Below, piece after piece: positions 7,138-38,624 of a stretch of DNA of 64,000 nucleotides (the stretch's first letter is position 1; each line of letters starts with the position of its first letter). Below the pieces are notes generated by a model. That model had not been told where the DNA came from and ran no database searches. It worked only from the letters and a program-made list of their open reading frames with translations. Location of the stretch: the NCBI RefSeq assembly GCF_021729885.1, contig NZ_CP063401.1:1550001-1614000 (forward strand), read 5' to 3'. This DNA comes from Devosia sp. SL43 (GTDB lineage: Bacteria > Pseudomonadota > Alphaproteobacteria > Rhizobiales > Devosiaceae). The position numbers and the translations under genes were made by a program.

Positions 7138-9549
7138 ATGGAAATGCGGAATCAGAAATCGAAGGGCAAGCCTCCAGCCGGACCCAGCATTATTGCTGAT
7201 TACCGGCTGCAGCCCGGCGTGCCCGACGAGATGATCGACCCAAGCGGCAATATCCGTCCGGGCTGGTCGCAACTGATGGCCGCATTCGACAAGCTCGGCC
7301 CCACCGAGCTTGCTGCCCGCTTTGAGCGCGCCGACCAGTATCTGCGCGACGCCGGCGTGTTCTACCGCAAGTATGACGGCGCCGAAGGCCGCGAACGAGA
7401 TTGGCCCCTGGCGCATGTGCCGCTGCTGATCGATGAGGCCGACTGGTCCCGGATCAGCGCTGGCCTTATCCAGCGTGCTGAACTGCTGGAAACCGTCATC
7501 GCCGATATCTATGGCGACAACACGTTGGTTCAGCAGGGTCTGCTGCCACCCGAACTGATCGCCCGCAATGGCGAGTTCCTGCGGCCACTTGTCGGCGTCA
7601 AACCGGCCAGCGGTCACTACCTGCATTTCTGCGCCTTCGAACTCGGCCGTGGCCCCGATGGCGCCTGGTGGGTTCTCGGCGACCGGACGCAAGCGCCATC
7701 GGGTGCCGGCTTCGCCCTCGAAAATCGCGTCGCCACCACGCGCGCGCTGTCCGACATCTATTCGGACATGAATGTGCATCGTCTGGCCGGCTTCTTCCGC
7801 GGCTTCCGTGATACGCTGTTTGACGAGGCCAAGCGCGATGGTGGCCGCGTCGCCATCCTGACGCCGGGCCAGCTCAACGAAACCTATTTCGAACACGCCT
7901 ATATTGCCCGCTATCTCGGCCTGATGCTGCTCGAAGGCGAAGATCTGGTCGTCGAGGACGGCAAGGTCATGGTGCGGACCGTTGCCGGCCCCAAGCCGAT
8001 CAGCGTGCTGTGGCGCCGCGTCGATGCCAGCTTCGTCGATCCGCTCGAGCTGCGCTACGACAGCCGCATCGGCACGCCCGGCATGGTCGAGGCCCTGCGC
8101 CATGGCTCGGTCTCGATGATCAATGCCCTGGGCACGGGCTTGCTCGAAACCCGTGCTTTGGCGGCCTTCATGCCCCGCCTCGCCAGGAAGCTGCTCGGCG
8201 AGAGCATGCTGCTGCCCGAAATCGCCACATGGTGGTGCGGTCAGCCCGGCGAGCAACGCCACGTCATCGACAATTTCGACAACCTGATGATCGGCCCGGC
8301 CTTCGCCACGACGCTGCCCTTCGATGACCAGCGCGGCACCATGCTCGGCTCGACCATTCCTGCCGACCAGAAGGCCGTTCTGCTCGACCGCATCCGGGCC
8401 AATGGCGCCGACTATGTCGGCCAGGAGCCGGTGCAGCTGTCCACCGCCCCCGTCTATGTCGACGGCAAACTGCAACCGCGTCCCATCGCCCTGCGCGTTT
8501 ACGCCGCCCGCACTGACAAAGGCTGGACGATTATGCCCGGCGGCTTTGCCCGCGTCGGTTCGACCCTCGACACCACCGCCATTGCCATGCAGCGCGGCGG
8601 CCAGGCGGCCGACGTGTGGGTGCTGTCCTCCAAGCCGGTCGAGCGCGTTACCCTGCTGCCCCAGGATGGCGAGAAGCTCGTTCGCAACTCGCCTGGCAGC
8701 CTGCCCAGTCGCGCCGCCGATAACCTGATCTGGCTGGGACGTTATGCCGAGCGCTGCGAGTCAGCCGTCCGTATCCTGCGCGCCTACAATGCCCGGCTGG
8801 CCGAGCTGTCCAAGCCCGACCTGCCGATCCTCAAGCATTGCGCCGACTTCCTCGAAACCATCGATGTCGATGCCTCCGAGGCCATGCCGATGGGCCTGCT
8901 GTCCTCCATCGACAGCGCCGTCCACAGTGCCGGCCAGATCCGCGACCGATTCTCGCCCGATGGCTGGCTCGCCCTCAATGATCTGCAGAAGACTGCGCAA
9001 CGCTTTGCAAAAAAGATCGAACCGGGCGACGATGCTACCCGCGCCATGACCGTGCTGCTGCGCAAGCTGGCGGGCTTTTCCGGCCTCGTACATGAGAACA
9101 TGTATCGCTTTGCCGGCTGGCGCTTCCTCGAACTCGGTCGCCGCCTCGAGCGCGCCATCCAGATCGCCCGCATCACCGGCTGGCTGACCGACAAGGACGC
9201 GCCCGACGGCTCGCTCGAAATGCTGCTCGAAATCGGCGACAGCGTCATGTCGCATCGTCGGCGCTACTCGGTCAGCGCCGGCACGCAGAGCGCCACGGAC
9301 CTGCTCGTGCTCGATCCGCTCAATCCGCGCTCGGTCCAGTTCCAGATCACCGAATTGCGCACCCAGATCGAAATGCTGCCTGGTGGTATCGACGACGGCA
9401 TACTGTCGCCGGCCGCCAAGGCAGCTCTGCAGATCGAGACCGACCTGCGCATCGCCGTGGCCGCCGATATGACGCCGGAAGCACTCGACAAGCTCGCGGC
9501 CGAAATCGGCATGCTGTCGAGCCTCGTCGCCTCGGCCTACTTCGTGTAG
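7138..9549 (+). CDS. circularly permuted ATP-grasp / alpha-E domain fusion protein
   Basis: An 803-residue fusion. Residues ~1-490 are the circularly permuted ATP-grasp domain (COG2308), including NGEFLRPLVGVKP, LTPGQLNETYFEHAYIARYLG and VLWRRVDASFVDP. Residues ~520-800 are the all-helical alpha-E domain (COG2307), beginning SRAADNLIWLGRYAER. In many bacteria these are two adjacent genes; here they are fused. ATP-grasp enzymes activate a carboxylate as acyl-phosphate and join it to an amine, so this is the likely ligase of the operon; the substrate is unknown. It follows the DUF2126 gene by 2 bases and precedes a second transglutaminase gene by 5 bases, so the three are almost certainly one transcript. 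Confidence 0.9.
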   Translation: MEMRNQKSKGKPPAGPSIIADYRLQPGVPDEMIDPSGNIRPGWSQLMAAFDKLGPTELAARFERADQYLRDAGVFYRKYDGAEGRERDWPLAHVPLLIDEADWSRISAGLIQRAELLETVIADIYGDNTLVQQGLLPPELIARNGEFLRPLVGVKPASGHYLHFCAFELGRGPDGAWWVLGDRTQAPSGAGFALENRVATTRALSDIYSDMNVHRLAGFFRGFRDTLFDEAKRDGGRVAILTPGQLNETYFEHAYIARYLGLMLLEGEDLVVEDGKVMVRTVAGPKPISVLWRRVDASFVDPLELRYDSRIGTPGMVEALRHGSVSMINALGTGLLETRALAAFMPRLARKLLGESMLLPEIATWWCGQPGEQRHVIDNFDNLMIGPAFATTLPFDDQRGTMLGSTIPADQKAVLLDRIRANGADYVGQEPVQLSTAPVYVDGKLQPRPIALRVYAARTDKGWTIMPGGFARVGSTLDTTAIAMQRGGQAADVWVLSSKPVERVTLLPQDGEKLVRNSPGSLPSRAADNLIWLGRYAERCESAVRILRAYNARLAELSKPDLPILKHCADFLETIDVDASEAMPMGLLSSIDSAVHSAGQIRDRFSPDGWLALNDLQKTAQRFAKKIEPGDDATRAMTVLLRKLAGFSGLVHENMYRFAGWRFLELGRRLERAIQIARITGWLTDKDAPDGSLEMLLEIGDSVMSHRRRYSVSAGTQSATDLLVLDPLNPRSVQFQITELRTQIEMLPGGIDDGILSPAAKAALQIETDLRIAVAADMTPEALDKLAAEIGMLSSLVASAYFV

Positions 9550-24917: not shown

Positions 24918-26060
24918 ATGACCTTCCAGCTCCACCGTACCGATCTGATCGGCGACACGCCCGGCACCACCACGGCGCTCCATTGGTTCACCGCCGGCCC
25001 AACCGACTCGCCCGTCCGCGTCCACCTGCAGGCGGCCCTGCATGCCGACGAGCAACCCGGCACCATGGCGCTGCATCATCTGCTGCCGCGACTACGCGAC
25101 GCCGACGCTGCGGGCCAGCTCAGGGCTCATTTCACCATCTTCCCGTCGGTCAATCCGCTCGGCCTCGCGACATATTCGCTGCGGCACCATATCGGCCGCT
25201 ACGACATCGAGACCGGCATCAACTACAACCGCCGCTGGCCCGACCTCTACCCGCTGATCTCAGCGGCGATATCAGGCAAGCTCACCGACGATCCACACGC
25301 CAATGTCGCCACCATCCGCGCCGCCGCTGCAGCCTGGATCGATTCCCAGCGGCCAGGCAGCGCCATCCAGCAGTTGCGCCTGCTCGTCCTTAAATCCGCC
25401 GCCGCATCCGACATCGTGCTCGACCTGCACTGCGACGACGACAGCCTCAAGCACATCTTCACCTCGCCCGAGCTGATGCCCCGTCTGCAGGATTTGGCCG
25501 ACTGGATGGGCGTCGCGGCTACCCTCACCGCCGAGGATAGCGGCGGTGGCTCCTTCGACGAAGTCCTGCCCTCGCTCTTTCGCAAGGCGCAGCTCGACAA
25601 CCCCGGCTATCCCATTCCTGCCGCCGCGGAAACGGCAACCCTCGAATATCGCGGTCGCGCCGACAGCTTCGACGCCCTGGGCCGGGAAGACGCCACCGGC
25701 CTTTTCGGTTTCTTCGCGTCACGGGGCCTGATCGCCGCCGATCCCGGCCCGCTTCCGCAGCCCGCTCCCGGCCCCACACCATTCGAAGCCACCGAAGTCC
25801 TCCGCGTCGACGCCCCCGGCCTCCTCGCCTATCGCGTCGAACTCGGGGACCGCGTGGTCAAGGACCAGCCCATCGCCGACCTCATTGCCATGGACGGCCC
25901 TGAAGCCTTCATGGCTCGCCGGCCCATTCTGGCGGGAACGGATGGCTTCGTGCTGTCGCGGGTATCGGGAAAGTACGTGAAACGCGGTGCGGGGATTGCG
26001 AAGATCGTGGGGACGCAGGTTTTGCCGGCACGGGCGGGTGGGTACCTGCTGGAGGACTAG
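24918..26060 (+). CDS. succinylglutamate desuccinylase/aspartoacylase family zinc hydrolase
   Basis: A 380-residue M14-like metallohydrolase. The zinc site can be read as His and Glu in LHADEQPG (about residues 42-49) and a later histidine in IVLDLHCDDD (about 170-180). The C-terminal ~80 residues form a beta-rich, biotinyl-like domain (LLAYRVELGDRVVKDQPIADLI). Family members remove acyl groups from amino acids (AstE, AspA, DoeB). At the end of an amino-acid ABC operon, it probably deacylates the imported ligand in the cytoplasm (inference). Confidence 0.85.
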   Translation: MTFQLHRTDLIGDTPGTTTALHWFTAGPTDSPVRVHLQAALHADEQPGTMALHHLLPRLRDADAAGQLRAHFTIFPSVNPLGLATYSLRHHIGRYDIETGINYNRRWPDLYPLISAAISGKLTDDPHANVATIRAAAAAWIDSQRPGSAIQQLRLLVLKSAAASDIVLDLHCDDDSLKHIFTSPELMPRLQDLADWMGVAATLTAEDSGGGSFDEVLPSLFRKAQLDNPGYPIPAAAETATLEYRGRADSFDALGREDATGLFGFFASRGLIAADPGPLPQPAPGPTPFEATEVLRVDAPGLLAYRVELGDRVVKDQPIADLIAMDGPEAFMARRPILAGTDGFVLSRVSGKYVKRGAGIAKIVGTQVLPARAGGYLLED

Positions 26061-26207: not shown

Positions 26208-28601
26208 CTACCCCGCCAGCCGCATCTCCGCCTCGGCCTTCACCGCAGCGCCCTTGCCGGGCACATGCGTCAGCAGGTAATGCGGCAGGTCGATACTGTC
26301 GAGCGGCCGGGCGAAGTAGAAGCCCTGCAGCTGATGGCAGGCGATGCCAGCCAGGAACACGGCTTGCTCCTTGGTCTCGACGCCTTCGGCTGTGATCTTG
26401 AGCTTGAGCGTCTTGCCCAGCGACGCGATCGCCTTGAGAATGTCGCGCGCCACTTCGTCGCCGCTCGATGCATCCACGAAAGACCGGTCGATCTTGATCT
26501 TGTCGAACGGAAATTTCAGCAGGTAGCTGAGACTCGAATAGCCGGTGCCGAAATCGTCCATCGCAATGGTCACGCCCAGCGCCCGGATTTCGGCCAGCTT
26601 CTCCACCACCTCGTCGGGATTCTCCATCAGAAGCCCCTCGGTAATCTCGATCTCCAGCCGCTCCGGAGCCAGTCCGGACAAAGCCAGCGCCTTCTGCACG
26701 ATCAGCGAAATGTCCGACCGGCGGAAGTGCTTGGCAGACAGGTTGACCGCTACGGTCAGGTGATCAGGCCAGCTCGCTGCGGCCTTGCAGGCCTCGACAA
26801 TGGTCCAGTCGCCGATATCGACGATCAGGTTGGAATGCTCGGCAATGGGTATGAACTCCGCCGGCGGCACCAGCCCGCGGATGGGGTGGTTCCAGCGGAT
26901 CAGCGCCTCGAAGCCAACGGGTTGCTCGTCAACAGCGGAAACCAGAGGCTGGTAGTACAGCACCAGTTCATCATTGCTGATCGCGTCGCGCAGTTCCACT
27001 TCCAGCAGGCGCCGCTCGCGCGCTTCGGAGTCCATCTGGCTCTCGAAGAAACGGTAAACCGAACGTCCATCGGCCTTGGCGCGATAGAGCGCCAGGTCCG
27101 CGTTGCGCAGGATTTGGTCCGGCCGTGTGCCATTCATCGGCGCCATGGCGATGCCGATGCTGACGCCGATCACCACGTCCTCGCCATCGATGCCGTAGGG
27201 CTGCTTGATCTCGTCGATCAGCCGCGTCGCCAGCCGCGCTGCATTGTCCGCATCCGCGTCATTGGGCAGGATGATGGCGAATTCGTCGCCGCCCAGCCGC
27301 GCCGCCACGTCGGCCTCGCGCACCAAGGCGTTAATACGGCGCGCGACCTGCACTAGCAGCTTGTCGCCGGCCATATGGCCCTTGGTATCGTTGACTGACT
27401 TGAACTGATCGAGATCCAGGAACATCACGGAGAATGGGGTGCCATAGCGCTCCAGCCGCGCCACGCAGCTGTTGAGCTGCTCGGTGAACTTGGTGCGGTT
27501 CAGCAACCCGGTCATCGGATCGTGATGCGCCAGCATGGTGATGCGCTTTTCGGCCTGCTTCCGCTCGGTCACATCCGAGCCGGTGCCGATATAGCCGAGA
27601 TAGGTGCCCGCCTCGTCGAATGCCGGCTTGCCCGTCAGGCTCCACCAGCAATCCTTGCCATCGGCGATCACCCGCAAATCGACATCCTGGAAGGTCTGGC
27701 GACCCTCGACATCCCGTTCGATATGGACCATCAGCGGATCGTTGGGCGGCGTGATGCAGCGCAGGAAATGCACGAAGTCCGCACCGCGCAACGCATCTTC
27801 AGCAACGCCGGTGGCGGCGGTGAACCCGCCTGAAAGCCGGTTGATGCTGCCATCGGCGTCAAAGCCCCAGATCCAGTCCGACGCACTTTGCTCGAACTCG
27901 CGCAGCAGCAAACCGATGATCTCGCGCTTTTCCTCGACCAGTGTCTCGGATGCGCGATGCGCCACAAAGGCGGCAGCATGGTTGAAGGTGATCATCACCA
28001 TGATGAAGGTGAAGGCCATCAGCAGTGAACCTTGGGCCCAGATATCCGAAGTGGTCGAACCCATGCCAAGCACGCTGCCCAGCGCGCCGACGATCAGCGG
28101 TATCGTGAAGGCCGCCAGCGCCTGCGGGTAGTTCACCAGCGCCATCATCGAAATACAGAGCAGACCGCCGACCCCGATTGTCGCGGCCCCGCGCACCGTG
28201 CTGTTCTGATCCACCGGCAGCAGGTTGAGCACAAAACCCCACAGCGTCCCGAGCAGGAAGGCATAGAGGATCGTCCGCGCCACCGACCTATGCGGACGGC
28301 CATCCAGCGGCGACTGTGGATGCGCATATGCCAAATACATGCCGTGAAGCTGCACCAGGTTGATCACACTGGTCGCCACAGCGACCGGGACAAAGCGCGA
28401 CGTCCCCCAGGTCAAGAACAAGAAGACGGCCGAAACCACCACCGAGGCCACCATCATGGCGGGTGTCATCTGGCTCACCGAGCCCAGTTGCTGGCGCAGC
28501 AGTTTCTGGCGGACATGCGGCGACAACCCGTCCGCACCGATGGCGCGATCGACAAAGTCGTTGATCAGGGAAAGCAGGCCTGCACCCGGTATGACGCTCA
28601 T
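26208..28601 (-). CDS. membrane-bound PAS-GGDEF-EAL c-di-GMP protein
   Basis: About 797 residues. The N-terminal ~230 residues carry several transmembrane helices (AMMVASVVVSAVFLFLTWG and others, MASE-like but not assigned). A PAS domain (about 260-385) is followed by GGDEF (RLGGDEF near 437, intact active site) and EAL (FEALIRWNHP near 563, with DDFGTGYSSL later). Both catalytic motifs look complete, so it could make and break cyclic di-GMP. The start is uncertain: ATG at 28601, 28646 or 28706. It is divergent from the oxoamine synthase gene, sharing the 28602-28808 promoter region. Confidence 0.88.
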   Translation of the reverse strand: MSVIPGAGLLSLINDFVDRAIGADGLSPHVRQKLLRQQLGSVSQMTPAMMVASVVVSAVFLFLTWGTSRFVPVAVATSVINLVQLHGMYLAYAHPQSPLDGRPHRSVARTILYAFLLGTLWGFVLNLLPVDQNSTVRGAATIGVGGLLCISMMALVNYPQALAAFTIPLIVGALGSVLGMGSTTSDIWAQGSLLMAFTFIMVMITFNHAAAFVAHRASETLVEEKREIIGLLLREFEQSASDWIWGFDADGSINRLSGGFTAATGVAEDALRGADFVHFLRCITPPNDPLMVHIERDVEGRQTFQDVDLRVIADGKDCWWSLTGKPAFDEAGTYLGYIGTGSDVTERKQAEKRITMLAHHDPMTGLLNRTKFTEQLNSCVARLERYGTPFSVMFLDLDQFKSVNDTKGHMAGDKLLVQVARRINALVREADVAARLGGDEFAIILPNDADADNAARLATRLIDEIKQPYGIDGEDVVIGVSIGIAMAPMNGTRPDQILRNADLALYRAKADGRSVYRFFESQMDSEARERRLLEVELRDAISNDELVLYYQPLVSAVDEQPVGFEALIRWNHPIRGLVPPAEFIPIAEHSNLIVDIGDWTIVEACKAAASWPDHLTVAVNLSAKHFRRSDISLIVQKALALSGLAPERLEIEITEGLLMENPDEVVEKLAEIRALGVTIAMDDFGTGYSSLSYLLKFPFDKIKIDRSFVDASSGDEVARDILKAIASLGKTLKLKITAEGVETKEQAVFLAGIACHQLQGFYFARPLDSIDLPHYLLTHVPGKGAAVKAEAEMRLAG

Positions 28602-28808
28602 GAGGCCAACATGACGCGGAGCACTTAATTTTACGTATGCTGGCATTAGCATGCGCCCAGTATTCGCAGAACAGATACCGATCATTAAGCTCAAATTGCA
28701 GTTCAAAGCAGTTACGCAAAATAAACCGAAGCGCTTAAGTCGATTTTCAAGTCGCCTCCGTAGTTTTGCTCACAGATGGGCCAGAAAGGTCCGCTTGGAG
28801 AGCGTCGC

Positions 28809-30170
28809 ATGAGCACCGATTTCACCCCAGTTCCAGAGGCCGCACTGACGGGCAGTCTGCGAGACTTCCGTGCGCCAGAAGGCCACAATCTGATGACCCG
28901 CATCGCCGGGTTCTACGAATGGCAGAACCTCCGCCGCGAGCACGAGCTGTGGCCCTATGCCCGCTCAACCTCGACAGCCCCAAAGGCACGTTGCGAGGCC
29001 AAGAGCGATACCGGTAGTGCCTTCTCCGGCATCAATTTCGCCAGCCAGGATTACCTGAGCCTGTCGTCCCACCCCGCCGTCAAGGAAGCCGCGATCAAGG
29101 CGATCGGTGAGTATGGCGTGCATAGCGCAGGCTCAGCCGCCCTGCTCGGCAACACCGCCAATTCGCTGCTGCTGGAACAGGGCCTGTCCTCGTTCCTCGG
29201 CAACCGTGAAGTCGTGCTGTACCCGACCGGCTGGGCTGCCGGCTACGGTTCGGTCCAGGGCTTCGTCCGCGCCAACGATCATGTTGTGATGGATATCCTG
29301 GCCCATTCGTGCCTGCAGGAAGGCGCCAAGGCCGCCACGCAGAACATCCACTATCACGGCCACCTCAATCTCGACGCGCTGGCCCGCAAGCTCGAGCGCA
29401 TCCGTACCAATGACAAGGACAACGGCATTATGGTGGTGACGGAGAGCCTGTTCTCCATGCACTCCGATACGCCTGATCTGTTGGCGATGCGCGCCCTCTG
29501 CGACGAGTTCGGCGCCACCCTTCTGGTCGACTGTGCTCATGACCTGGGCTCGATCGGCGACGATGGCCTCGGTCACCTTGGCCTGCAGAACGCCATGGAT
29601 GCGGCCGACATCATCATCGGCAGCTTCTCCAAGACCTTTGGCTCCAATGGCGGTTTCATTGCCGTTAAGACCAAGGCGGCCGCCGAGTATCTCAAGTATT
29701 ACAGCGCCACCCACACCTTCTCCAACGCCCTGTCGCCCGTTCAGGCCGCAAGCGTCCTAGCCGCTCTTAACATCGTACGGTCCGAAGAAGGCCGCACGCT
29801 GCGCCGCAAGCTGATGGACAATATCTTGTACCTCCGTGCCGAAATGACCCGTGCTGGCCTTGAAACCCTCGGCGACCCATCGCCGATCGTTCCGGTGCGC
29901 CTCGGTCTTGAGGGCGTTGGCCGCTTCGCCTCGCGCCACCTGATGGCAATGGGCGGCATTGCCAACCTGGTGGAATACCCGGCCGTCCCCCAGGGCGGCG
30001 CCCGCTTCCGCTTCCAGGTCATGGCCGCGCATAGCCGCGAGGACATCGACCAGGTCGTGGCGATCCTGTCCAAGGCCATGCGCGATGCCGATCTCGAATA
30101 CCGTCTCGGCCATGAAGGCCAGCAGGAAACCGGGCGCACACGCCCAGCACAATCGAGCGCAGCCGCCTAA
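28809..30170 (+). CDS. alpha-oxoamine synthase family PLP enzyme, CqsA/LqsA-like candidate
   Basis: A 453-residue class-II PLP enzyme of the group that joins acyl-CoA to an amino acid. The PLP lysine is Lys275 (GSFSKTFGSNGG), with Asp241/His244 in LLVDCAHDLGSIG and the ring-stacking His166 in MDILAHSCLQEGA. That AH-x-x-L-x-EGA pattern and SAALLGN(T) resemble what I recall of the CqsA autoinducer synthase more than BioF, Kbl or HemA, which have N-H-A-S there. A ~70-residue N-terminal extension is unusual. GGAGAG lies seven bases before the ATG. It is co-transcribed with a receiver gene nine bases downstream. 5-Aminolevulinate synthase or serine palmitoyltransferase activity cannot be excluded. 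Confidence 0.8.
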   Translation: MSTDFTPVPEAALTGSLRDFRAPEGHNLMTRIAGFYEWQNLRREHELWPYARSTSTAPKARCEAKSDTGSAFSGINFASQDYLSLSSHPAVKEAAIKAIGEYGVHSAGSAALLGNTANSLLLEQGLSSFLGNREVVLYPTGWAAGYGSVQGFVRANDHVVMDILAHSCLQEGAKAATQNIHYHGHLNLDALARKLERIRTNDKDNGIMVVTESLFSMHSDTPDLLAMRALCDEFGATLLVDCAHDLGSIGDDGLGHLGLQNAMDAADIIIGSFSKTFGSNGGFIAVKTKAAAEYLKYYSATHTFSNALSPVQAASVLAALNIVRSEEGRTLRRKLMDNILYLRAEMTRAGLETLGDPSPIVPVRLGLEGVGRFASRHLMAMGGIANLVEYPAVPQGGARFRFQVMAAHSREDIDQVVAILSKAMRDADLEYRLGHEGQQETGRTRPAQSSAAA

Positions 30171-30179
30171 GGATTGACG

Positions 30180-30572
30180 ATGACTCAACCCCTCAAGCTG
30201 CTTGCGGTGGACGACGACGCGCCCTCTGCCGAGCTCATCGTGCGGGTGGCGGAACGCTGCGGCTACGAAGCCTTCGCCACCTCGGATTCGCGCGGCGTCA
30301 TCAACCTCGTCGCGGCCCTGCGGCCCGACGTGATGGCTGTCGACATCTCGATGCCGCATGTCGATGCGATCGAACTCTTCCGCCTGCTCGCCGAGCAGCG
30401 CTATGCCGGCGAGATCGTCATCGTCAGCGGCCAAGACGAGGCGACGCTATCGATGGTGCAGCGCTCCGCCGAACTGATGGGACTCCATCGCCCCTACGTC
30501 CACCAGAAGCCGCTGGACTTCGCCCGCCTGCGCGAAACGCTGAACGGCACGAGGCTCGCCAAGGCGAGCTGA
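30180..30572 (+). CDS. single-domain response regulator (receiver)
   Basis: A 130-residue stand-alone receiver with an intact site: Asp11-Asp13 after strand 1 (LAVDDDAP), phospho-acceptor Asp55 (VMAVDISMP), Ser83 and Lys110 (VHQKPLD). There is no output domain, so it acts through a partner or as a phosphate relay. It follows the oxoamine synthase by nine bases with AAGGA before its ATG, so the two are translated together. That pairing of a metabolic-looking enzyme with a receiver suggests signalling. Confidence 0.88.
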   Translation: MTQPLKLLAVDDDAPSAELIVRVAERCGYEAFATSDSRGVINLVAALRPDVMAVDISMPHVDAIELFRLLAEQRYAGEIVIVSGQDEATLSMVQRSAELMGLHRPYVHQKPLDFARLRETLNGTRLAKAS

Positions 30573-30593
30573 GCGACCAGCCGTACAAACGAA

Positions 30594-30621
30594 CAAGCCC
30601 CCGATCATAGGGGGCTTTTTG
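30594..30621 (+). terminator. rho-independent terminator after the synthase-receiver operon
   Basis: Stem AGCCCCC (30596-30602) / GGGGGCT (30610-30616), loop GATCATA, T-run to 30620. Preceded by A residues, so it could work on the opposite strand too. Confidence 0.85.
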
Positions 30622-30632
30622 TTAGGGGGGCA

Positions 30633-30778
30633 CTAGGTGTGCCGAGCTTTGGGTCAAGGCGAGTCGAGAACGGCTGGTCTTCGAGAACCGGAGCGGAGCG
30701 TACTCAAGTACGTGAGCACCGGAAGCGCAGAAGACGGCCGTTCGCAGGCCGCCTTCACCCAAAGATCGGCGCACCTAG
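30633..30778. repeat. 146-bp imperfect intergenic palindrome
   Basis: Outer arms CTAGGTGTGCCGA and TCGGCGCACCTAG pair, then CTTTGGGT with ACCCAAAG, and the centre GTACTCAAGTAC is at about 30700-30711. It fills the gap between the convergent synthase-receiver and kinase-receiver operons, and the stop codon of the receiver at 30775 lies inside its right arm. Confidence 0.78.
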
Positions 30779-31170
30779 ACCGCGATAATCGCGGCCTCCG
30801 GTGTCTTCGGCCCCAGCACGGCCTGCATCTTGCCCAGCAAGCGCGGTAGATCCACCGGCTTGGTGTCAAAATCGATACATCCCGCCGCCAAGGCGTTGGC
30901 CCTATCCGACTCAAACGCACTCGCGGTCAGCGCGATGATCGGCAAGGCCGCCGTTTCCGGGTCCGCGCGGATACGGCGCGTCGCTTCGCAGCCATCCATC
31001 TCTCCCAGGCCGATATCCATCAGGATCACGTCAGGCATCAACGACTTGGCCGCGGCAATACCACTCGGGCCGTCCTCGGCAAAGCGGATGGAGAAACCAC
31101 GCCGCTCCAGCCGACGGCCCAGCACGTCGCGATTAATGGGATTGTCTTCAACGATGAGAACCAGCGTCAT
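30775..31170 (-). CDS. single-domain response regulator (CheY/DivK-like)
   Basis: A 131-residue receiver with all key residues: Glu-Asp in LIVEDNPIN, phospho-acceptor Asp52 in VILMDIGLGEMDG, Thr in IALTASA, and lysine in FDTKPVD. The layout DIGLGEMDG and EDNPINRD resembles DivK and the receivers of hybrid kinases. It starts 23 bases after the hybrid kinase stop with GGGAG upstream, so it is in the same transcript and is a likely phosphate acceptor for that kinase. Confidence 0.9.
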   Translation of the reverse strand: MTLVLIVEDNPINRDVLGRRLERRGFSIRFAEDGPSGIAAAKSLMPDVILMDIGLGEMDGCEATRRIRADPETAALPIIALTASAFESDRANALAAGCIDFDTKPVDLPRLLGKMQAVLGPKTPEAAIIAV

Positions 31171-31193
31171 GCCCGGTGCTCCCTTCTATACTT

Positions 31194-33089
31194 CTATGCG
31201 TTTGCGGCTTTGGCACGGGCTTGCCCGCGCGTCGCCTTGAGACCGGCCAGCGCCGCCTTGACCTTGGATGCATCGAGCGGCTTCATCACGATGCCGTCGG
31301 CTCCCGCCGCCAGCGCCTTGCTGCGCTCGCTGAGGATCGAGATCATGAACACCGGAATGTCTGATGTGACAGGATCGGCCTTGAGTGCCGCCAGCACGTC
31401 CCAGCCGTCAAAGCCGGGCATCAGGATGTCGAGGAAGATGGCCGACGGCTTCACCGTCCGGGCGATCTGCAGCGCTGATTGCGGCGCGTCGGTGCAGATG
31501 GGCGTATAGTCTTCCTTGAGGAACAGCCGCTCTGCGAGTTCGAGGAAATTGCGGTCATCATCCACCACCAGCAGGCGCTCGCGCGTCGAGTGATTGGCCG
31601 AATGCCCGCTCATCCCCGCATAGGCGGCCGTGCGCTGTCCAACCTCGGCCTCGCTCTCGGCCAGAAATGCGTCTTCATCCTGGGTACGCCGCGCCACAAC
31701 AACGGGCGCAACGGGCTCAGCCGGGGCATGTTCGGCTTGCGCCGGCAGGCGGATGGTGAACCGGCTGCCCTTGCCCAGTTCACTCTCGATCTCGATCTGG
31801 CCGCCCATCAGACGTAGCAGGTTCTGGCTCAGCGACAGACCCAGGCCGGTGCCGCCATATACGGCAGCGATCTTGGCGTTGGCTTGCTGGAAGTTGGAGA
31901 ACAGTGCCTGCTGCTGCTCGCGCGAAATACCGATGCCTGTGTCAGCCACCGCAATCTCGACCCAGTCGCCCTTGCGCTTCACCGCCAGGGTGATCTGCCC
32001 GTTCTGCGTGAACTTGGCCGCGTTGGACAACAGGTTGAACACCGCCTGGCGCAGCTTGGTCGCATCGGCGCGCATCGTGCCCAGCGCGCCGCTTCGCTCG
32101 ACCACGAAAGTGTTGGTGTTCTTGGCCGCCAGCGGTCGTGCAGTCGCCTCGACCTCGTCGATTAGTTTGTCGAGGTCCACGTTCTCGACGTGAAGCGCCA
32201 TCTTGCCAGCCTCGATCTTGGAGATGTCGAGGATGTCGTTGACCATGGCCAGCAGGTGCTTGCCGGCGGCGCTGATCTTCTGCAGGTCGGCGATCTGCTC
32301 GCCGCGGCCATCGAGTTCGGCGTCCTCGAGCAGGATTTCCGAATAGCCCAGCACTGCATTGAGCGGCGTACGCAACTCGTGGCTCATCTTGGCCAGGAAT
32401 TCGGACTTGGCGCCGTTGGCCCGCTCGGCCTCGTCCTTGGCACTGGTCAGCGCCTTCAGCGTATCCTGGTGCCGCTCGATTTCCTTGATCAACTCAGACT
32501 GGCTATCGACCACGCTCGAGTAATAGGCCGCCATCATGAACACGTAGATGTTGGAGCCCAGCGCAGAAAGCACCCCGGCCACCACCATCTTCTCGACCGG
32601 AATATGCACGGGGAAGTCAGCGTACAGATAGAAACCGTAGAGCGAACCGATACCGACGATGATCTGGCCGAACACGAAGGCGCGCGCCGTCCAGGTCGAG
32701 CCCAGATACATGAAGGCGAGCAGCGGCGTCAGCACGAACCACACCAGGAACGGCGAACTGGTACCGCCGTAATTGTAGGTGCCCCAGAGAATACAGAACG
32801 TCAGGTTCAGCACCGAGGCCATCGCCAGCGGCGTATAGGCTCTGGGGAACAGCTTCACCAGCGCCAGGAAGGGCCAGAAGCCATAGATCGACGCCGCCAG
32901 GATCAGCACATGCGGCGACGGGTCAGGATCGGCGAACCACAGGAACAGCGGGATCGGCGTCGCGATGATCGGCCCGAAGATATGGCTGATAATGAACATC
33001 TGCACGCGCTTGCGCGTATGCAGGTCATTCGCCATTTGCGCCGGGATGAACCAGTTCATCACCGCCTGAAAAACCGTCAATACGTTCAC
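31194..33089 (-). CDS. six-TM hybrid sensor histidine kinase, CqsS/LqsS-like topology
   Basis: About 631 residues from a GTG with GAGG seven bases upstream; ATG 33059 and ATG 33131 are alternatives. Residues ~29-190 hold six transmembrane helices (near 29-50, 60-79, 85-103, 112-129, 135-157 and 167-190) with only short loops and no periplasmic sensor domain. Then come a coiled linker, HisKA with His237 (FLAKMSHELRTPLNAV), HATPase with DTGIGIS and GGTGLGL, and a C-terminal receiver with Asp554 (IFLDILMPGFDG). A membrane-embedded sensor plus receiver is the layout of CqsS, which detects a lipophilic ketone. It is co-transcribed with a second receiver and faces the oxoamine synthase operon. Confidence 0.88.
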   Translation of the reverse strand: MNVLTVFQAVMNWFIPAQMANDLHTRKRVQMFIISHIFGPIIATPIPLFLWFADPDPSPHVLILAASIYGFWPFLALVKLFPRAYTPLAMASVLNLTFCILWGTYNYGGTSSPFLVWFVLTPLLAFMYLGSTWTARAFVFGQIIVGIGSLYGFYLYADFPVHIPVEKMVVAGVLSALGSNIYVFMMAAYYSSVVDSQSELIKEIERHQDTLKALTSAKDEAERANGAKSEFLAKMSHELRTPLNAVLGYSEILLEDAELDGRGEQIADLQKISAAGKHLLAMVNDILDISKIEAGKMALHVENVDLDKLIDEVEATARPLAAKNTNTFVVERSGALGTMRADATKLRQAVFNLLSNAAKFTQNGQITLAVKRKGDWVEIAVADTGIGISREQQQALFSNFQQANAKIAAVYGGTGLGLSLSQNLLRLMGGQIEIESELGKGSRFTIRLPAQAEHAPAEPVAPVVVARRTQDEDAFLAESEAEVGQRTAAYAGMSGHSANHSTRERLLVVDDDRNFLELAERLFLKEDYTPICTDAPQSALQIARTVKPSAIFLDILMPGFDGWDVLAALKADPVTSDIPVFMISILSERSKALAAGADGIVMKPLDASKVKAALAGLKATRGQARAKAANA

Positions 33090-33191: not shown

Positions 33192-34406
33192 TCAGAGCCC
33201 CAGGCTGGCGTGTTCGAATGCCATCATCACCCCGCGCAACTCCGCCAACCCCTTCATCCGCCCGATCGTCGGATAACCCGGCTGCGAGCGTCGTCCAAGG
33301 TCGTCCAGAATGTCCTGTCCGTGGTCGGGCCGCATCGGGATTGTATGATCCTTCCGCCCGGCCGCCTTGCGCTTGTTCTCCTCGCGCACGATGGCCGCGA
33401 TCAGCGCCACCATGTCGGTATCACCCGCCAGATGCTCGGCCTCATAGAACGAGCCGACAATGTCGTCATTGTCGCGCTTGACGTTGCGCAGGTGTAGAAA
33501 ATGCACCTTGTCGCCCAGCCGCTCCATCATGCCGGGCAGATCGTTATCCGGCCGCGCACCCAGCGAGCCCGAGCACAGCGTCATGCCGTTGGCGGGACTG
33601 TCGACAGCGTCGAGGATGTATTGGTAATCCGCCTCGGTCGACATCACCCGCGGCAGCCCCAGCAGGGCAAACGGCGGATCATCAGGATGGCAGCAGAGGC
33701 GCAGGCCGAGGTCTTCGGCCACGGGCACAACCTCGTCGAGGAAGTCGACGAAATTGGCCCGCAGCCGCTCCCGGCTGATCCCGCCATATTCGCTGAGATG
33801 CGCTCGCACATCGTCCAGCGTCATCGACTCGGTCGATCCGGGCAAGCCCATGGTTACGTTGCGCGCCAGCTGCTTCTTGCCGGCATCGTCGAGGCCCGAG
33901 TACCGCCGCGCCGCTTCGTCGGCGATGGCATTGGTATAGTCGGTGGCCGCGCCCTGCCGTTCGAGGATATGAATGTCGAAGGCGGCGAAATCGTTGATAT
34001 CGAACCGCATACAGGACCCGCCATTGGGCACGGTCCAGCGCAGGTCGGTGCGCGTCCAGTCCAGCACGGGCATGAAGTTGTAGCAGATCACCTCTACGCC
34101 GCTATCGGCCAGGTGCTGCATGGACACCTTGTAGTTGGCGATATGCTCGCGCCAGGCATTCTTCTGCTTCTTGATATCTTCGGATACCGGCAGGCTCTCT
34201 ACCACGTCCCAGGTCAGTCCGGACGGCGTGCCGTCCTTCCGCGTCTGGATTTCCTGGTGCCGCCTAGCGATCTCCTCCGGCGTCCACACCACCCCGTTGG
34301 GCACATGGTGCAGCGCGCTGACCACGCCCTGCGCACCCACCTGGGTGATGTCGTCGATGCTGCACAAATCTTTGGGTCCGAACCACCGCCAGGTCTGTCG
34401 CAAATC
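33192..34406 (-). CDS. uxuA: mannonate dehydratase
   Basis: A 404-residue UxuA: converts D-mannonate to 2-keto-3-deoxy-gluconate in glucuronate catabolism. It starts LRQTWRWFGPKD, the family N-terminus, from a TTG at 34406 with AGGAG eight bases upstream; the longer frame adds unconserved residues. The metal-site region CCHPDDPPFALLGLPRVMS and the GSLGARPDND segment are intact. TTGTATG lies at 34420-34426, a half-site of the palindrome in front of the TRAP operon at 41863, so the same GntR regulator may control both (inference). Confidence 0.93.
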   Translation of the reverse strand, partial: DLRQTWRWFGPKDLCSIDDITQVGAQGVVSALHHVPNGVVWTPEEIARRHQEIQTRKDGTPSGLTWDVVESLPVSEDIKKQKNAWREHIANYKVSMQHLADSGVEVICYNFMPVLDWTRTDLRWTVPNGGSCMRFDINDFAAFDIHILERQGAATDYTNAIADEAARRYSGLDDAGKKQLARNVTMGLPGSTESMTLDDVRAHLSEYGGISRERLRANFVDFLDEVVPVAEDLGLRLCCHPDDPPFALLGLPRVMSTEADYQYILDAVDSPANGMTLCSGSLGARPDNDLPGMMERLGDKVHFLHLRNVKRDNDDIVGSFYEAEHLAGDTDMVALIAAIVREENKRKAAGRKDHTIPMRPDHGQDILDDLGRRSQPGYPTIGRMKGLAELRGVMMAFEHASLGL

Positions 34407-34475
34407 ATCGCTCCTACACTTGTATGGAAGACTGCTTGCCACAAGGCGGACGCCTGGAAAAGGCCTATTCGCTGG

Positions 34476-35090
34476 CTAGCGCAAATCCTTGTCATAGACG
34501 AACTTCGGCATTTCCCACTTCTTGAGAATGGCCAGAACGCGCAGCGGAAACCCCACCAGGAGGGCCACAGAGATCACCACTTCGGGATAGATGTTGGCCT
34601 GCAACCCGAAATAGTAGATCGCCCCGGTGACGATCGACACCGTGGCATAGAGCTCGCCGCTGAACACCAGCGGCACGTCATTGCACAACACGTCGCGCAG
34701 GATGCCGCCGAATATCCCGGTGACCATGCCCGCCACCAGCACGATCAACGGATGCGCTCCGACCTCCATGGCGATATTGCAGCCAATGATGGTGTAAACC
34801 ACCAGCCCCAGCCCATCGAGCAGCAGGAATGGCCAGCGCAGCCTGTCGACCACCCGTACCAGGGCAATGGTCAGCAGCGCTGCCCCGCAGATTAGCAGCA
34901 GCACATAGGGGTTCTTCACCCAGAACAAGGGATAGTGGTCGAGAAAGATATCGCGGATCGTCCCGCCGCCCAGCGCCGTCACGCAGGCCAGCAGGCACAC
35001 GCCAAACCAGTCCATCTTGCGCCGTCCGGCCGCCAAAGCCGCAGTCATCGCCTCAGCCGTCAGCGCGATGTAGAAAATGACGTTCAGCAT
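34476..35090 (-). CDS. UPF0126/TRIC-type (YicG-like) membrane protein
   Basis: A 204-residue membrane protein with about seven helices and two copies of the family motif: GGGTIRDIFL (about residue 41-50) and GGILRDVLC (about 127-135). These internal repeats identify the UPF0126 family, related to trimeric intracellular cation channels and, for some members, glycine uptake. The real start is ATG 35090; a much longer open frame running to 35762 is antisense to the next gene. Divergent from the M15-like gene. Confidence 0.88.
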   Translation of the reverse strand: MLNVIFYIALTAEAMTAALAAGRRKMDWFGVCLLACVTALGGGTIRDIFLDHYPLFWVKNPYVLLLICGAALLTIALVRVVDRLRWPFLLLDGLGLVVYTIIGCNIAMEVGAHPLIVLVAGMVTGIFGGILRDVLCNDVPLVFSGELYATVSIVTGAIYYFGLQANIYPEVVISVALLVGFPLRVLAILKKWEMPKFVYDKDLR

Positions 35091-35180
35091 CGTGCTTCTA
35101 CCCCCATTACCCGATGTCGAAACCGGGTTGCCCTTCAGCACGTTACCGCAAGAGATTGCCGCGTCCAGAGCGAGAACAAG

Positions 35181-35801
35181 ATGCGCCAGCCCAAATCCGT
35201 CAAAGCCCTCGAAGATCTCGGCCGAGTCCAACTCAGCGAAAACTTCTTCCTGCGCGATTTCCTCTATTCCGAAATCGCCATCATCCACGGCTTCCAGAAC
35301 ATCCCCGGCGACCCCGACCTGGCCATCGCTACCGGCAAAGTGCTCTGCGAAACCCTGCTCGAACCGCTGCAAGCGCGCTTCGGCAAGATCTCCATCCGCT
35401 CCGCCTACCGCTCGCCCGGGGTCAACCAGTTCGGCAACATCAACAAGCTCAACTGCGGCCGCAACGAAGCCAACTATGCCGGCCACATCTGGGACCGCCG
35501 CGACGCCGAGGGTCGCATGGGCGCCACCGCCTGCGTGGTCGTCAACCGCTTCGTCCCTTACTACGAACCCACCGGCGACTGGGAAGCCATGGCTTGGTGG
35601 ATCCACGACCACCTGCCCTATTCCGACATGGAATTCTTCCCCAAGCTGGCCGCCTTCAACCTGCAATGGCGCGAGGAGCCGGTCAGGAGCATCTACAGCT
35701 TCATCCCACCGAGGCGAGGACGGTTGACGGAGCCGGGAAAGGCGAACTGGGATGGTCGGCACGATGAAGCCTATGCGGCGATGCTAGCGGAGGTTGGGTG
35801 A
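35181..35801 (+). CDS. peptidase M15-like hypothetical protein
   Basis: A 206-residue cytosolic-looking protein without signal peptide. ISIRSAYRSPGVN (about residues 72-84) resembles the core of M15/D-Ala-D-Ala carboxypeptidase-like folds, but the canonical S-x-H-x-x-G-x-A-x-D zinc motif is not clear: the corresponding stretch is YAGHIWDRRDAEGRMGATACVVV. It may be an inactive or divergent member. The codon usage fits the genome, and the frame is longer and better than its shadows. Confidence 0.55.
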   Translation: MRQPKSVKALEDLGRVQLSENFFLRDFLYSEIAIIHGFQNIPGDPDLAIATGKVLCETLLEPLQARFGKISIRSAYRSPGVNQFGNINKLNCGRNEANYAGHIWDRRDAEGRMGATACVVVNRFVPYYEPTGDWEAMAWWIHDHLPYSDMEFFPKLAAFNLQWREEPVRSIYSFIPPRRGRLTEPGKANWDGRHDEAYAAMLAEVG

Positions 35802-35822
35802 CCCCCGAACCATTCCCAAACA

Positions 35823-35928
35823 CGGTGTCATCCCGGCGAAGGCCGGGATCCAAGTCCGTGGTCATCAGCAACATCCAGCGTATGGGTCATTCACCGCATG
35901 GATTCCGGCCTTCGCCGGAATGACACCG
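35823..35928. repeat. pair of inverted REP hairpins
   Basis: CGGTGTCATCCCGGCGAAGG at 35823 onwards and its inverted copy ending TGACACCG at 35928, each itself a hairpin (CCCGGCgaagGCCGGG and TTCCGGCcttcGCCGGAA). It belongs to the common alphaproteobacterial GTCAT(C/T)CC(C/G)GC family also seen at 44075 and 55761. Confidence 0.8.
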
Positions 35929-35949
35929 CGAGTGTGAGAGCCTCCGCTC

Positions 35950-36285
35950 CTACAAGAAATCCGCCCGCATCGGCGTGAAGACATCCACCAGCCGGCCGCG
36001 CGTCAGCGCCACCACGCCATGCACCAAGCCGCTCGGCACAATGAAGCTCCCGCCCTGTTCCACCACTTGGGTAACCCCGTCGATCGTCACCTCGAACCGG
36101 CCCTCGGCGACATAACTCACCTGAATATGCGGATGGCTGTGCAGCGCACCTACCGCGCCCTGCTCGAAGCCGAACTCGACCTGCATCAGCTCTGGCGTAT
36201 GGATCAGTACTCGGCGCGTATTGCCCGGCGCCAGCTCAACCCACTCGCTCTCGCCCGGCTGTGCAAACAGGCTTTGCTCAGTCAT
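35950..36285 (-). CDS. kdgF: cupin, KdgF-type unsaturated uronate hydrating enzyme
   Basis: A 111-residue single-cupin protein. Metal ligands are His49, His51 and Gln55 (HSHPHIQ) with His89 (GLVHGV); the sequence TIDGV and the end DVFTPMRADFL match KdgF. KdgF speeds the opening of delta-4,5 unsaturated uronates to 5-keto-4-deoxyuronate, the substrate of KduI. It starts at ATG 36285 with AGGTGA upstream, 4 bases after the kduD stop, and closes the uronate operon. Confidence 0.87.
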   Translation of the reverse strand: MTEQSLFAQPGESEWVELAPGNTRRVLIHTPELMQVEFGFEQGAVGALHSHPHIQVSYVAEGRFEVTIDGVTQVVEQGGSFIVPSGLVHGVVALTRGRLVDVFTPMRADFL

Positions 36286-36289
36286 CTCA

Positions 36290-37054
36290 TCACCTCGCCA
36301 GCCAGCCGCCATCCACCGGGATGACAGCGCCATGCATGTAGTTGGAGGCCTGCGACAGCAGGAACACCGCCGCGTCACCGATATCACCCGGCGCGCCCCA
36401 GCGTCCCGCCGGGATACGCCCCAGGATCGACGCCGACCGATCCGGATCGGCGCGCAAAGCCTCGGTATTGTTGGTCTCGATGTAACCGGGTGCGATCGAA
36501 TTCACGTTGATCCCCTTGGCCGCCCACTCGTTGGCCAGCAACCGCGTGATCCCGAGCACACCGCTTTTGGACGCCGTATAGCTCGCCACCCGTATGCCGC
36601 CCTGAAAGCTCAGCATCGACGAGATATTGACGATCTTGGCCGCCCGGCCTGCGCCGATCGCCTTCTTCCCCAGCGCCTGGCACAGGAAGAACATCGTCTT
36701 GAGGTTGATATCCATCACCGCGTCCCAGTCGGCCTCGGTGAAATCCACCGCGTCGACCCGTTTGATGATCCCGGCATTGTTGACCAGCCCATCGATCGGC
36801 CCGTGGTCGGCCCATGCCGCATCAAACATCGCCTGCGCTGCGACGGTCGAACCGAGATCGGCACGAACCTCGACGAAGTCCGCCCCCTGCCCCGCCATCA
36901 GCGACGCTGTGACCTCCATCGACGAGCGCCCGACGCCGATCACCCTGCCACCGGCCCGACCAACGCTGAGCGCAATGCCCTGCCCGATGCCGGTATTGGC
37001 GCCGGTGACCATTACCGTCTTGCCGCTGAGGCTGAATGCCGAAAGATCGGTCAC
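36290..37054 (-). CDS. kduD: 2-dehydro-3-deoxy-D-gluconate 5-dehydrogenase
   Basis: A 254-residue short-chain dehydrogenase. Cofactor motif VTGANTGIGQGIA, NNAG, catalytic Ser (ISSMLSFQGG) and Tyr-Lys (ASYTASKSG). NNAGIIKR and the overall sequence fit KduD, which reduces the diketo-deoxygluconate made by KduI. The start is a GTG at 37054 that overlaps the kduI stop (GTGA), so the two are translationally coupled. Confidence 0.9.
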   Translation of the reverse strand: MTDLSAFSLSGKTVMVTGANTGIGQGIALSVGRAGGRVIGVGRSSMEVTASLMAGQGADFVEVRADLGSTVAAQAMFDAAWADHGPIDGLVNNAGIIKRVDAVDFTEADWDAVMDINLKTMFFLCQALGKKAIGAGRAAKIVNISSMLSFQGGIRVASYTASKSGVLGITRLLANEWAAKGINVNSIAPGYIETNNTEALRADPDRSASILGRIPAGRWGAPGDIGDAAVFLLSQASNYMHGAVIPVDGGWLAR

Positions 37055-37881
37055 CGCAGCTCGTCCATGCCGACCTTGTCGACATCGGTATAGTCGACAT
37101 TGTCCCCGGCCATCGCCCAGATGAAGGTGTAGGCCCCCGTCCCGGCGCCCGAATGGATCGACCATGGCGGCGAGATCACTGCCTGCTCGTTCCGCACGAT
37201 CAGGTGCCGTGTCTCCTCCGGCTCGCCCATCAGATGCACCACGAAGGCATCCGGCTTGAGGTCGAAATAGAGGTAGGCCTCCATGCGCCGGTCATGCACA
37301 TGCGCCGGCATGGTGTTCCACACCGAGCCCGGCGCGAAGCTGGTCAGCCCCACCACCAACTGGCATGTCTTGACACTGTCGGCATTGACGAACTGGAAGA
37401 TCGAGCGCTCGTTGGCCGTCTCCTGGCTGCCAAGGTCGAGCCGCTTTGCGTCGCTCTGCTTGATCAGCTTGGTCGGATGGCTGGCGTGTGCCGGTGCGCT
37501 CAGCAGGTAATACTTCGCCCCCTCGCCGCCAAACCGCACATCCTTGGCGCCCATGCCGATATGGAGCATGTCGCGCGATCCCACGGCATAGTCCGTGCCA
37601 TCCACCGTGATGGTGCCGGCAGCGCCGATATTGGCCGCGATCAGCTCGCGCCGGTCGAGAAAATTTGCCGTCCCGGTCGGCTTGATCGGCTCCAGCGCCA
37701 GAGGCGCCTTGCCCGGCATCGCCCCGCCCACCGCCATGCGGTCGTAATGGGTATAGGTCCAGTTGACCCCGCCCAGCGTGAACAGTTCCTCGATCAGGAA
37801 ATGCTCGCGCAGTTCTTCGGTGTTCATCGTCCCGGCGCTGACCGGGTCGATGGCGAAGCGAATATCGAAATCGGTGCTCAT
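37051..37881 (-). CDS. kduI: 5-dehydro-4-deoxy-D-glucuronate isomerase
   Basis: A 276-residue KduI. The zinc ligands His194 and His196 (PAHVHDRR), Glu201 (MEAYLYFDL) and His243 (WSIHSGAGT) are all present. It converts 5-keto-4-deoxyuronate to 3-deoxy-D-glycero-2,5-hexodiulosonate in breakdown of pectin- or glycosaminoglycan-derived unsaturated uronates. It is 2 bases after the GntR regulator and overlaps kduD. Confidence 0.95.
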   Translation of the reverse strand: MSTDFDIRFAIDPVSAGTMNTEELREHFLIEELFTLGGVNWTYTHYDRMAVGGAMPGKAPLALEPIKPTGTANFLDRRELIAANIGAAGTITVDGTDYAVGSRDMLHIGMGAKDVRFGGEGAKYYLLSAPAHASHPTKLIKQSDAKRLDLGSQETANERSIFQFVNADSVKTCQLVVGLTSFAPGSVWNTMPAHVHDRRMEAYLYFDLKPDAFVVHLMGEPEETRHLIVRNEQAVISPPWSIHSGAGTGAYTFIWAMAGDNVDYTDVDKVGMDELR

Positions 37882-37883
37882 AA

Positions 37884-38624
37884 CTAGTCCTGTTTGTTTT
37901 GTTCGCGCAGCCGCTGGCGGTAGCGCTCCTGGCTTAGCGAAAGGTGCTGTCGCATCGCCTCGCGCGCTGCATCGGCATCCTGCGCCGAAATGGCCCTGAG
38001 AATGGCCAGATGCTCTCTTTGCAGCCCGGCCTGATACTCATAGGTCAGCACGCTCTCGGTGCCCCAGGGCGAGGCCACGTCGCAGGGGATGGTCCGGCTG
38101 CCCAGCCCATCCAGCACCTCGATGTAAAACGGGTTGTTGGTCGCCGCCGCGATGGCACGGTGGAAGGCGAAATCTGTCTTGCCGGTCGGCGTCCCCAATT
38201 TCAGCAGCCGTTGAAAATCGTTCCACGCCTCCTGGATCGCCGCATCCTGACTGGCGCTGCGCCGCACCGCCGCCAGTCCCGCCGACTCGATCTCGATGCC
38301 CATGCGCACTTCGAGCACGTTGAGCGCCACCGATATCTTGTTCGAGCTCTCGGCCCCGATCGCATTGAACGGGCTCGCTGCATTGGCGACGATGAACACG
38401 CCCGCCCCCTGCCGCGACTGCACCAGCCCATCGGCCGCCAGCGCCGCGATCGCCTCGCGCACCACCGTCCGGCTGACGCCGAAAATGGTCGTCATCTGGC
38501 TCTCGGTCGGCAGTTTGCCGGTCTTGCCATATTCGCCCGCGCTGATGCGCTTCTTGAGCGTACCGATGACGAGATCGGCGAGCTTGGGTCGGCGGACCGC
38601 AACGCCACTTTCGTCTAGGCTCAT
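37884..38624 (-). CDS. FadR/GntR-family transcriptional regulator (FCD domain)
   Basis: A 246-residue regulator. N-terminal winged helix (about residues 12-80; LPTESQMTTIFGVSRTVVREAIAALAADGLVQSRQGAGVFI) and a C-terminal FCD ligand domain with metal-type histidines (DFAFHRAI, LREHLAIL-like). In this operon it most likely senses a uronate intermediate and represses dctPQM-kduID-kdgF. A candidate operator, CATACAA-N11-TTGTATG, is at 41863. Confidence 0.9.
   Translation of the reverse strand: MSLDESGVAVRRPKLADLVIGTLKKRISAGEYGKTGKLPTESQMTTIFGVSRTVVREAIAALAADGLVQSRQGAGVFIVANAASPFNAIGAESSNKISVALNVLEVRMGIEIESAGLAAVRRSASQDAAIQEAWNDFQRLLKLGTPTGKTDFAFHRAIAAATNNPFYIEVLDGLGSRTIPCDVASPWGTESVLTYEYQAGLQREHLAILRAISAQDADAAREAMRQHLSLSQERYRQRLREQNKQD

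Follow-up and report, generated by a model that had tools for sequence, protein, structure and literature searches.

Three described ketone-signalling systems, CqsA-CqsS of Vibrio, LqsA-LqsS/LqsT-LqsR of Legionella and JqsA-JqsS-JqsR of Janthinobacterium, share an alpha-oxoamine synthase dependent on pyridoxal 5'-phosphate (PLP), encoded next to a kinase with a six-helix sensor and with receivers nearby. We analyzed a comparable set of genes in Devosia sp. SL43, located on a stretch of 64,000 nucleotides (contig NZ_CP063401.1, positions 1,550,001 to 1,614,000 of the forward strand) which is termed the window. Four open reading frames (ORFs), all of them open in the window, encode an alpha-oxoamine synthase (ENZ), a hybrid histidine kinase (HHK) carrying an N-terminal membrane sensor (SENS), and the receivers RR1 and RR2. 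We consider this set a likely signalling module of synthase and receptor whose chemistry would resemble that of alpha-hydroxyketone quorum sensing, often provided with a cyclic diguanosine monophosphate (c-di-GMP) output.

As compared to the CqsA/LqsA systems, ENZ scores below the family cut-off and forms its own clade, SENS is without clear sequence similarity to their sensors, and the output is often a GGDEF-EAL protein which is sometimes fused to the sensor. The ENZ-SENS module is probably undescribed and works like CqsA-CqsS or LqsA-LqsS without being the same; no description of the family was found in one open-access library, from which most subscription papers are absent. Furthermore, the hosts of ketone signalling named in the accessible parts of two reviews (PMC5289986, PMC3376566) differ from the hosts of ENZ-SENS. 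A cluster of CqsS-like six-helix kinases, as presented in the accessible part of PMC4821796, includes alphaproteobacterial members, and SENS may or may not be one of them.

The predicted structure of ENZ showed the complete family fold with a predicted local distance difference test score (pLDDT) of 88.8 and template-modelling scores over the query (TMq) of 0.81-0.83 to Kbl and serine palmitoyltransferase (SPT). ENZ shares this fold and the residues His166, Asp241, His244, Lys275, and Arg401 with SPT, Kbl, BioF, and HemA; all five residues, which we take to be catalytic, were invariant across 29 compared ENZ rows. It carries DCAHD or DVAHD where these enzymes have DE[AS]HS and similar motifs, and it differs further by the receptor kinase encoded alongside. 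The N-terminal region of about 70 residues is specific to the family.

The preliminary description of this DNA had placed the enzyme nearer to CqsA than to BioF, Kbl, or HemA. The scores obtained with the NCBIfam models do not bear this out: the highest was reached with BioF (250.3 bits, cut-off 426.45), followed by the SPT models (224.6, cut-off 640, and 217.4, cut-off 500), Kbl (224.5, cut-off 460), the CqsA/LqsA model NF005526 (169.7, cut-off 428), and HemA (164.8, cut-off 338.55), so that every curated cut-off was missed. The control synthase L161 passed NF005526 with 683.2 bits, and so did L217 (460.7), L220 (489.3), and L244 (483.3). Among PDB sequences, SPT was the best match with 177.3 bits and CqsA reached 110.9 bits.

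Phylogenetic analysis placed ENZ outside both the SPT and the HemA rows. In a first tree, ENZ of the window and 28 relatives were monophyletic with a support of 100 in the Shimodaira-Hasegawa-like approximate likelihood ratio test (SH-aLRT), and 11 CqsA/LqsA rows formed a separate clade (SH-aLRT 84); the comparison further comprised eight SPT rows and single rows of E. coli BioF, Kbl, and the HemA of the same genome, with the empty row L188 omitted. A second tree of 50 rows, calculated without L173, L031, and 16 of the 29 ENZ rows, again yielded an ENZ clade (100) and a CqsA/LqsA clade, now joined by two alphaproteobacterial relatives (100). SPT rows fell outside the ENZ clade in both trees. 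Approximately unbiased (AU) tests rejected none of the sister groups proposed for ENZ, with p-AU values of 0.505 for CqsA, 0.395 for SPT, and 0.112 for HemA. ENZ is an intact alpha-oxoamine synthase with a clade of its own. Its assignment to CqsA/LqsA was ruled out by the NF005526 score and the separate clades, and that to HemA by the low score together with a second HemA in the same genome which reached 658.5 bits.

The sensor was examined at the level of sequence and structure. SENS of the window did not match any Pfam family, and two of 42 aligned relatives gave one stray match apiece; a known Pfam domain was therefore rejected. A relationship to a protein of solved structure was likewise dismissed, as none of the 11 PDB sequence matches up to an expect value (E) of 1 was credible; the best of them, an N-methyl-D-aspartate receptor with E 0.035, was judged to be a chance match. 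Kinship with the membrane N-terminus of the GGDEF-EAL protein was rejected as well (hhalign Prob 0.3). The structure model was all helical, with a pLDDT of 94.2 and a predicted template-modelling score (pTM) of 0.87. Its helices are read as crossing the membrane six times with short loops in between, and the sixth apparently continues into the kinase. This agrees with the six close-packed helices without periplasmic domain proposed earlier. According to model and Pfam, the six-helix sensor directly precedes HisKA in HHK, as it does in the CqsS/LqsS receptors.

Foldseek ranked the membrane part of the Rv1625c adenylate cyclase first among PDB structures (prob 1.00, TMq 0.57, TMt 0.35 over the target), an enzyme with a different effector. 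The membrane anchor of Rv1625c can be replaced by the six-helix domain of CqsS, and the cyclase activity of the chimera responds to CAI-1, as reported in the accessible part of PMC4821796. A distant group of SENS sequences was readily connected to SENS by hhalign (Prob 100, E 1.2e-42). Four of these distant members matched CqsS with Prob 64.5, a value which dropped to only 4.5 with eight sequences; matches of the CqsS profile to L217 and L220 may stem from the kinase H-box contained in the stretches used. Additionally, 13 weak SENS-like N-termini of 44-58 bits were observed in frames of about 600-670 amino acids in genomes without ENZ (G741, G748, G799, and ten more); they may represent a wider sensor superfamily.

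The linkage of synthase and sensor was analyzed in four sets of sequences. Among 101 related genomes, 22 contained ENZ with at least 57% identity, all of them of the same genus as the window, and in all 22 a homologous kinase gene shared the contig with ENZ at a distance below 2 kb. The kinase frame is in pieces in G026 and G038. A collection scan with the ENZ alignment yielded 244 candidates. The 80 best loci, i.e. the nearest relatives, were kept; some of them are near-duplicates, and in two cases a pair of loci comes from one genome. The nearest ENZ relatives (80-91% identity) belong mostly to Devosia, and the hosts include, by record title, Devosia, Mesorhizobium, Nitratireductor, Rhizobium, Phenylobacterium, Sphingomonas, and others. 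SENS was present within the fetched flank of ENZ at 68 of these 80 loci; for the remaining 12, it was found elsewhere in the genome in six cases and not found in six. A broken kinase frame beside an intact ENZ was seen in Devosia A8/3-2 and algicola (L089/L076 and L090/L077), reflecting either decay or sequencing errors.

Among 297 genomes of the order, ENZ above 700 bits and SENS above 237 bits occurred in the identical eight genomes, which span six genera and five families; these cut-offs were chosen after a gap in the scores had been seen. In G239 and G365, the two genes are found on separate contigs. The hypergeometric probability of this coincidence was 7e-16 for strong matches and 2e-8 with the weaker ones counted, both uncorrected for relatedness of the genomes. 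Across 318 genomes sampled from the class, each of the four ENZ carriers had a strong SENS, which in G570 and G658 lies far from ENZ on its contig or on a separate one, and four other genomes had weaker SENS matches. Distances of ENZ and SENS correlated with 0.85 over 45 loci, without control for shared ancestry. Matches to the kinase core only were excluded from the SENS count, and a merely generic kinase as partner of ENZ was rejected on this ground. Inheritance of synthase and receptor together is well supported by the genome comparison. The enzyme and the six-helix sensor, proposed earlier as a linked pair, were recovered as such in the genus, among the 80 loci, and in the order, and in none of these surveys was the kinase found mostly without the enzyme.

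The part attached to SENS varied and could be a hybrid kinase, a plain kinase, or GGDEF-EAL itself. Among the 68 loci, SENS is present on one kinase in 37, on two kinases in 23, and in a fusion with GGDEF-EAL in eight. The two-kinase loci resemble the LqsS/LqsT arrangement of Legionella. The fusion gene is always located on the strand of ENZ, 1-154 bases 3' of it. RR2 was recognized at 36 of 37 single-kinase loci and at all 23 two-kinase loci; the corresponding numbers for RR1 were 27 and two, and neither receiver was found at any of the eight fusion loci. Paired receivers, regarded as a feature of the system in the preliminary description, are indeed both present in the window; they are not essential. 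Of the 37 loci with a single kinase, 25 have a recognizable GGDEF-EAL gene as neighbour; of the 23 two-kinase loci, 11 have a REC-GGDEF-EAL gene. At L140 (1206-3056, + strand), an ORF of 616 amino acids combines an RR2-like receiver (58%) with a following ENZ (59%), which is either a receiver-synthase fusion or an effect of assembly in this metagenome-assembled genome (MAG).

SENS-family kinases were also found beside synthases of the CqsA type. In G561 and G393 of the class sample, such a kinase (147.1 and 132.2 bits) is encoded next to and divergently from a synthase passing NF005526 with 460.7 and 489.3 bits, respectively, which lends the earlier interpretation indirect support. G650 contains SENS-family kinases and an unlinked CqsA-type synthase of 483.3 bits. 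The latter is part of an ORF of 1191 amino acids (L244, 3939-7514, + strand) in which an MMPL/RND-type transporter (best stretch 59-391) is followed by the synthase (823-1157); this ORF possibly encodes a fusion of exporter and signal synthase. One weak SENS match was found in G611, where the family scan left out the synthase matches L211 and one more. In three genomes of the genus (G003, G030, G042), the kinase gene is present at the same place next to the GGDEF-EAL gene, and ENZ, RR1, and RR2 are missing. The sensor is shortened in G003 and gone in G030, and the phospho-acceptor His of HisKA is replaced by Gln in G042. Decay of the kinase in genomes lacking ENZ would be compatible with loss of the ligand, three cases being few.

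Several observations weigh against a signalling module of this kind. In six genomes with ENZ, no SENS was found, namely four of Mesorhizobium/Pseudaminobacter in which ENZ shares one gene setting, one Rhizobiaceae MAG, and one Bradyrhizobium MAG of short contigs. The order sample contained three further ENZ-like matches (441-556 bits) without SENS and the 13 weak SENS matches below 58 bits without ENZ. No SENS was found with three enzymes of a sister group of ENZ (48%; 45-49% identity for L246, L247, L248 in G848, G713, G283); the copy of L248 is interrupted. Conversely, three SENS-family proteins are encoded in G569, which yielded no ENZ and no synthase of the CqsA type, and G042 retains a good SENS of 202 bits, so that a strong SENS can exist without ENZ. 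As only the best candidates per genome were scored (five for ENZ, up to ten for SENS), misses are possible. Concerning the sensor, all PDB matches returned by Foldseek had E values above 0.001, the best fold match Rv1625c reaching only E 0.12, and hhalign did not match SENS to a CqsS/LqsS-type profile (Prob 1.9). This profile was built from 11 sequences obtained by searching the surroundings of 11 synthases above the NF005526 cut-off in 299 genomes of the phylum; each of these stretches contained a long ORF with a PQPYEN-type motif. Furthermore, the GGDEF-EAL neighbour was not recognized at every locus, some of them being clipped by contig ends, and the nature of the ENZ product is itself part of what we infer, as are its release, its binding by SENS, the direction of phosphotransfer, and a dependence on cell density.

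The strongest rival of a signalling function is a circuit acting within the cell's own membrane. Here, ENZ would produce a long-chain amino-ketone built into the membrane as a sphingoid-like or sulfonolipid-like lipid, and SENS would monitor this lipid or the state of the membrane for homeostasis instead of communication between cells. SPT as the best PDB match (177.3 bits) and the single clade of ENZ and SPT, which the AU test did not reject (p-AU 0.395), are in line with this possibility, as are the four loci with ENZ only, which adjoin genes we presume to concern surface or nucleotide-sugar functions. We nevertheless regard it as unlikely: ENZ remains below both bacterial SPT cut-offs (217.4/500, 224.6/640) and apart from the SPT clade, SENS-family kinases pair with CqsA-type synthases, i.e. 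enzymes making signals, and no further lipid-pathway gene was recognized in the loci scanned for selected domains. A metabolic role, with ENZ as an ordinary BioF-, Kbl-, or HemA-like paralogue whose pathway flux is controlled by the kinase, would be in line with the top score of BioF (250.3) and with a clade of ENZ and HemA, which was not rejected (p-AU 0.112). It fits poorly with an enzyme missing every curated cut-off in a genome encoding another HemA, and with a sensor devoid of a soluble metabolite-binding domain; it is considered very improbable.

A true CqsA-CqsS or LqsA-LqsS system would explain the same kind of parts in a similar layout and is compatible with the AU test (p-AU 0.505). 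It is contradicted by 169.7 bits where 428 are needed, by a CqsA/LqsA clade from which ENZ is absent, and by the unmatched sensor profile, and hardly deserves credit. The same can be said of a neighbourhood due to chance or position without functional link. The set occupies one conserved chromosomal place in Devosia, and linkage within the genus is therefore not independent; the pairing recurs, however, across further families, with the genes arranged differently or coupled to different output domains, and where both genes lie apart.

The favoured interpretation, a signalling module of synthase and receptor, rests on comparison, namely on the intact synthase fold, the conserved core residues, the intact receptor and receivers, the co-inheritance of ENZ and SENS, the exchange of outputs, and the pairing of SENS-family kinases with CqsA-type synthases. 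Of the ketone-signalling idea put forward in the preliminary description, the functional part and the pairing of synthase and sensor are supported; a closer kinship of the enzyme with CqsA is not. We infer that ENZ makes what HHK detects. From an amino acid and a fatty-acyl thioester, ENZ would form by condensation a lipophilic amino- or hydroxyketone. This compound would reach the membrane of its own cell or of a neighbour and there be bound within the six helices of SENS. The kinase/phosphatase activity of HHK would be altered on binding, and the phosphoryl group would pass to the receiver of the hybrid kinase and to RR2, and to RR1 where present. The usual end effect would be a change in c-di-GMP, brought about by the neighbouring GGDEF-EAL protein or by a directly attached GGDEF-EAL enzyme.

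The genes of the window are arranged as two convergent pairs, ENZ-RR1 facing HHK-RR2 (Table 1), and the ORFs and Pfam domains confirmed the earlier description of this layout. Three bases separate the ENZ stop codon from RR1. Alternative starts are present in frame for ENZ (ATG 28776), RR1 (ATG 30180), and HHK (TTG 33131). In HHK, SENS is followed by HisKA (residues 227-295), HATPase_c, and a receiver. The divergent GGDEF-EAL gene is a fifth member of the set and likely its output gene; its product retains both signature motifs and has a PAS domain and a membrane N-terminus of its own, unrelated to SENS.

Table 1. Features of the synthase-receptor locus in the Devosia sp. SL43 window
Feature	Position	Strand	Basis
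ENZ, alpha-oxoamine synthase family, PLP-dependent, 453 aa	28809..30170	+	ORF, Pfam Aminotran_1_2
RR1, single-domain receiver	30174..30572	+	ORF, Pfam Response_reg
RR2, single-domain receiver, 3' of HHK	30775..31170	-	ORF, Pfam Response_reg
HHK, hybrid histidine kinase, 631 aa	31194..33089	-	Pfam HisKA + HATPase_c + Response_reg
SENS, predicted six-helix membrane sensor, HHK residues 1-210	32460..33089	-	Structure model
GGDEF-EAL gene, divergent from ENZ, upstream of ENZ	26208..28706	-	Pfam domains

In the Devosia loci examined, the set is flanked by the units found at 24918-26060 and 33192-38624 of the window, a stable site for gain and loss. Presumably, the former is transporter/desuccinylase-like and the latter serves hexuronate use (uxuA, kduI, kduD, GntR). 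At four loci (L112, L113, L114, L115; ENZ at about 7990-9360, + strand, no SENS in the genome), ENZ is located behind a gene of about 190 amino acids with a signal-peptide-like start; the genes 3' of ENZ in L112 and L114 resemble what we take to be galU and glycosyltransferases.

Taken as a family, a second alpha-oxoamine synthase lineage apart from CqsA/LqsA, together with its own sensor family SENS, rather probably constitutes an undescribed quorum-sensing family of Alphaproteobacteria, which would convert a signal into c-di-GMP by a phosphorelay or within a single protein and whose SENS-type kinases would also serve CqsA-type synthases in some members. If so, ketone-type signalling would extend beyond the carriers of CqsA/LqsA, with a branch of its own among Alphaproteobacteria living in soil, in water, or with plants. 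The SENS-GGDEF-EAL protein, encoded one gene behind the synthase, could then turn a ketone into a change of c-di-GMP without phosphorelay. A sensor that nature has already combined with several outputs provides a ready test system, and SENS would offer a second case for asking how a membrane bundle that lacks a periplasmic domain can sense a lipophilic ligand.

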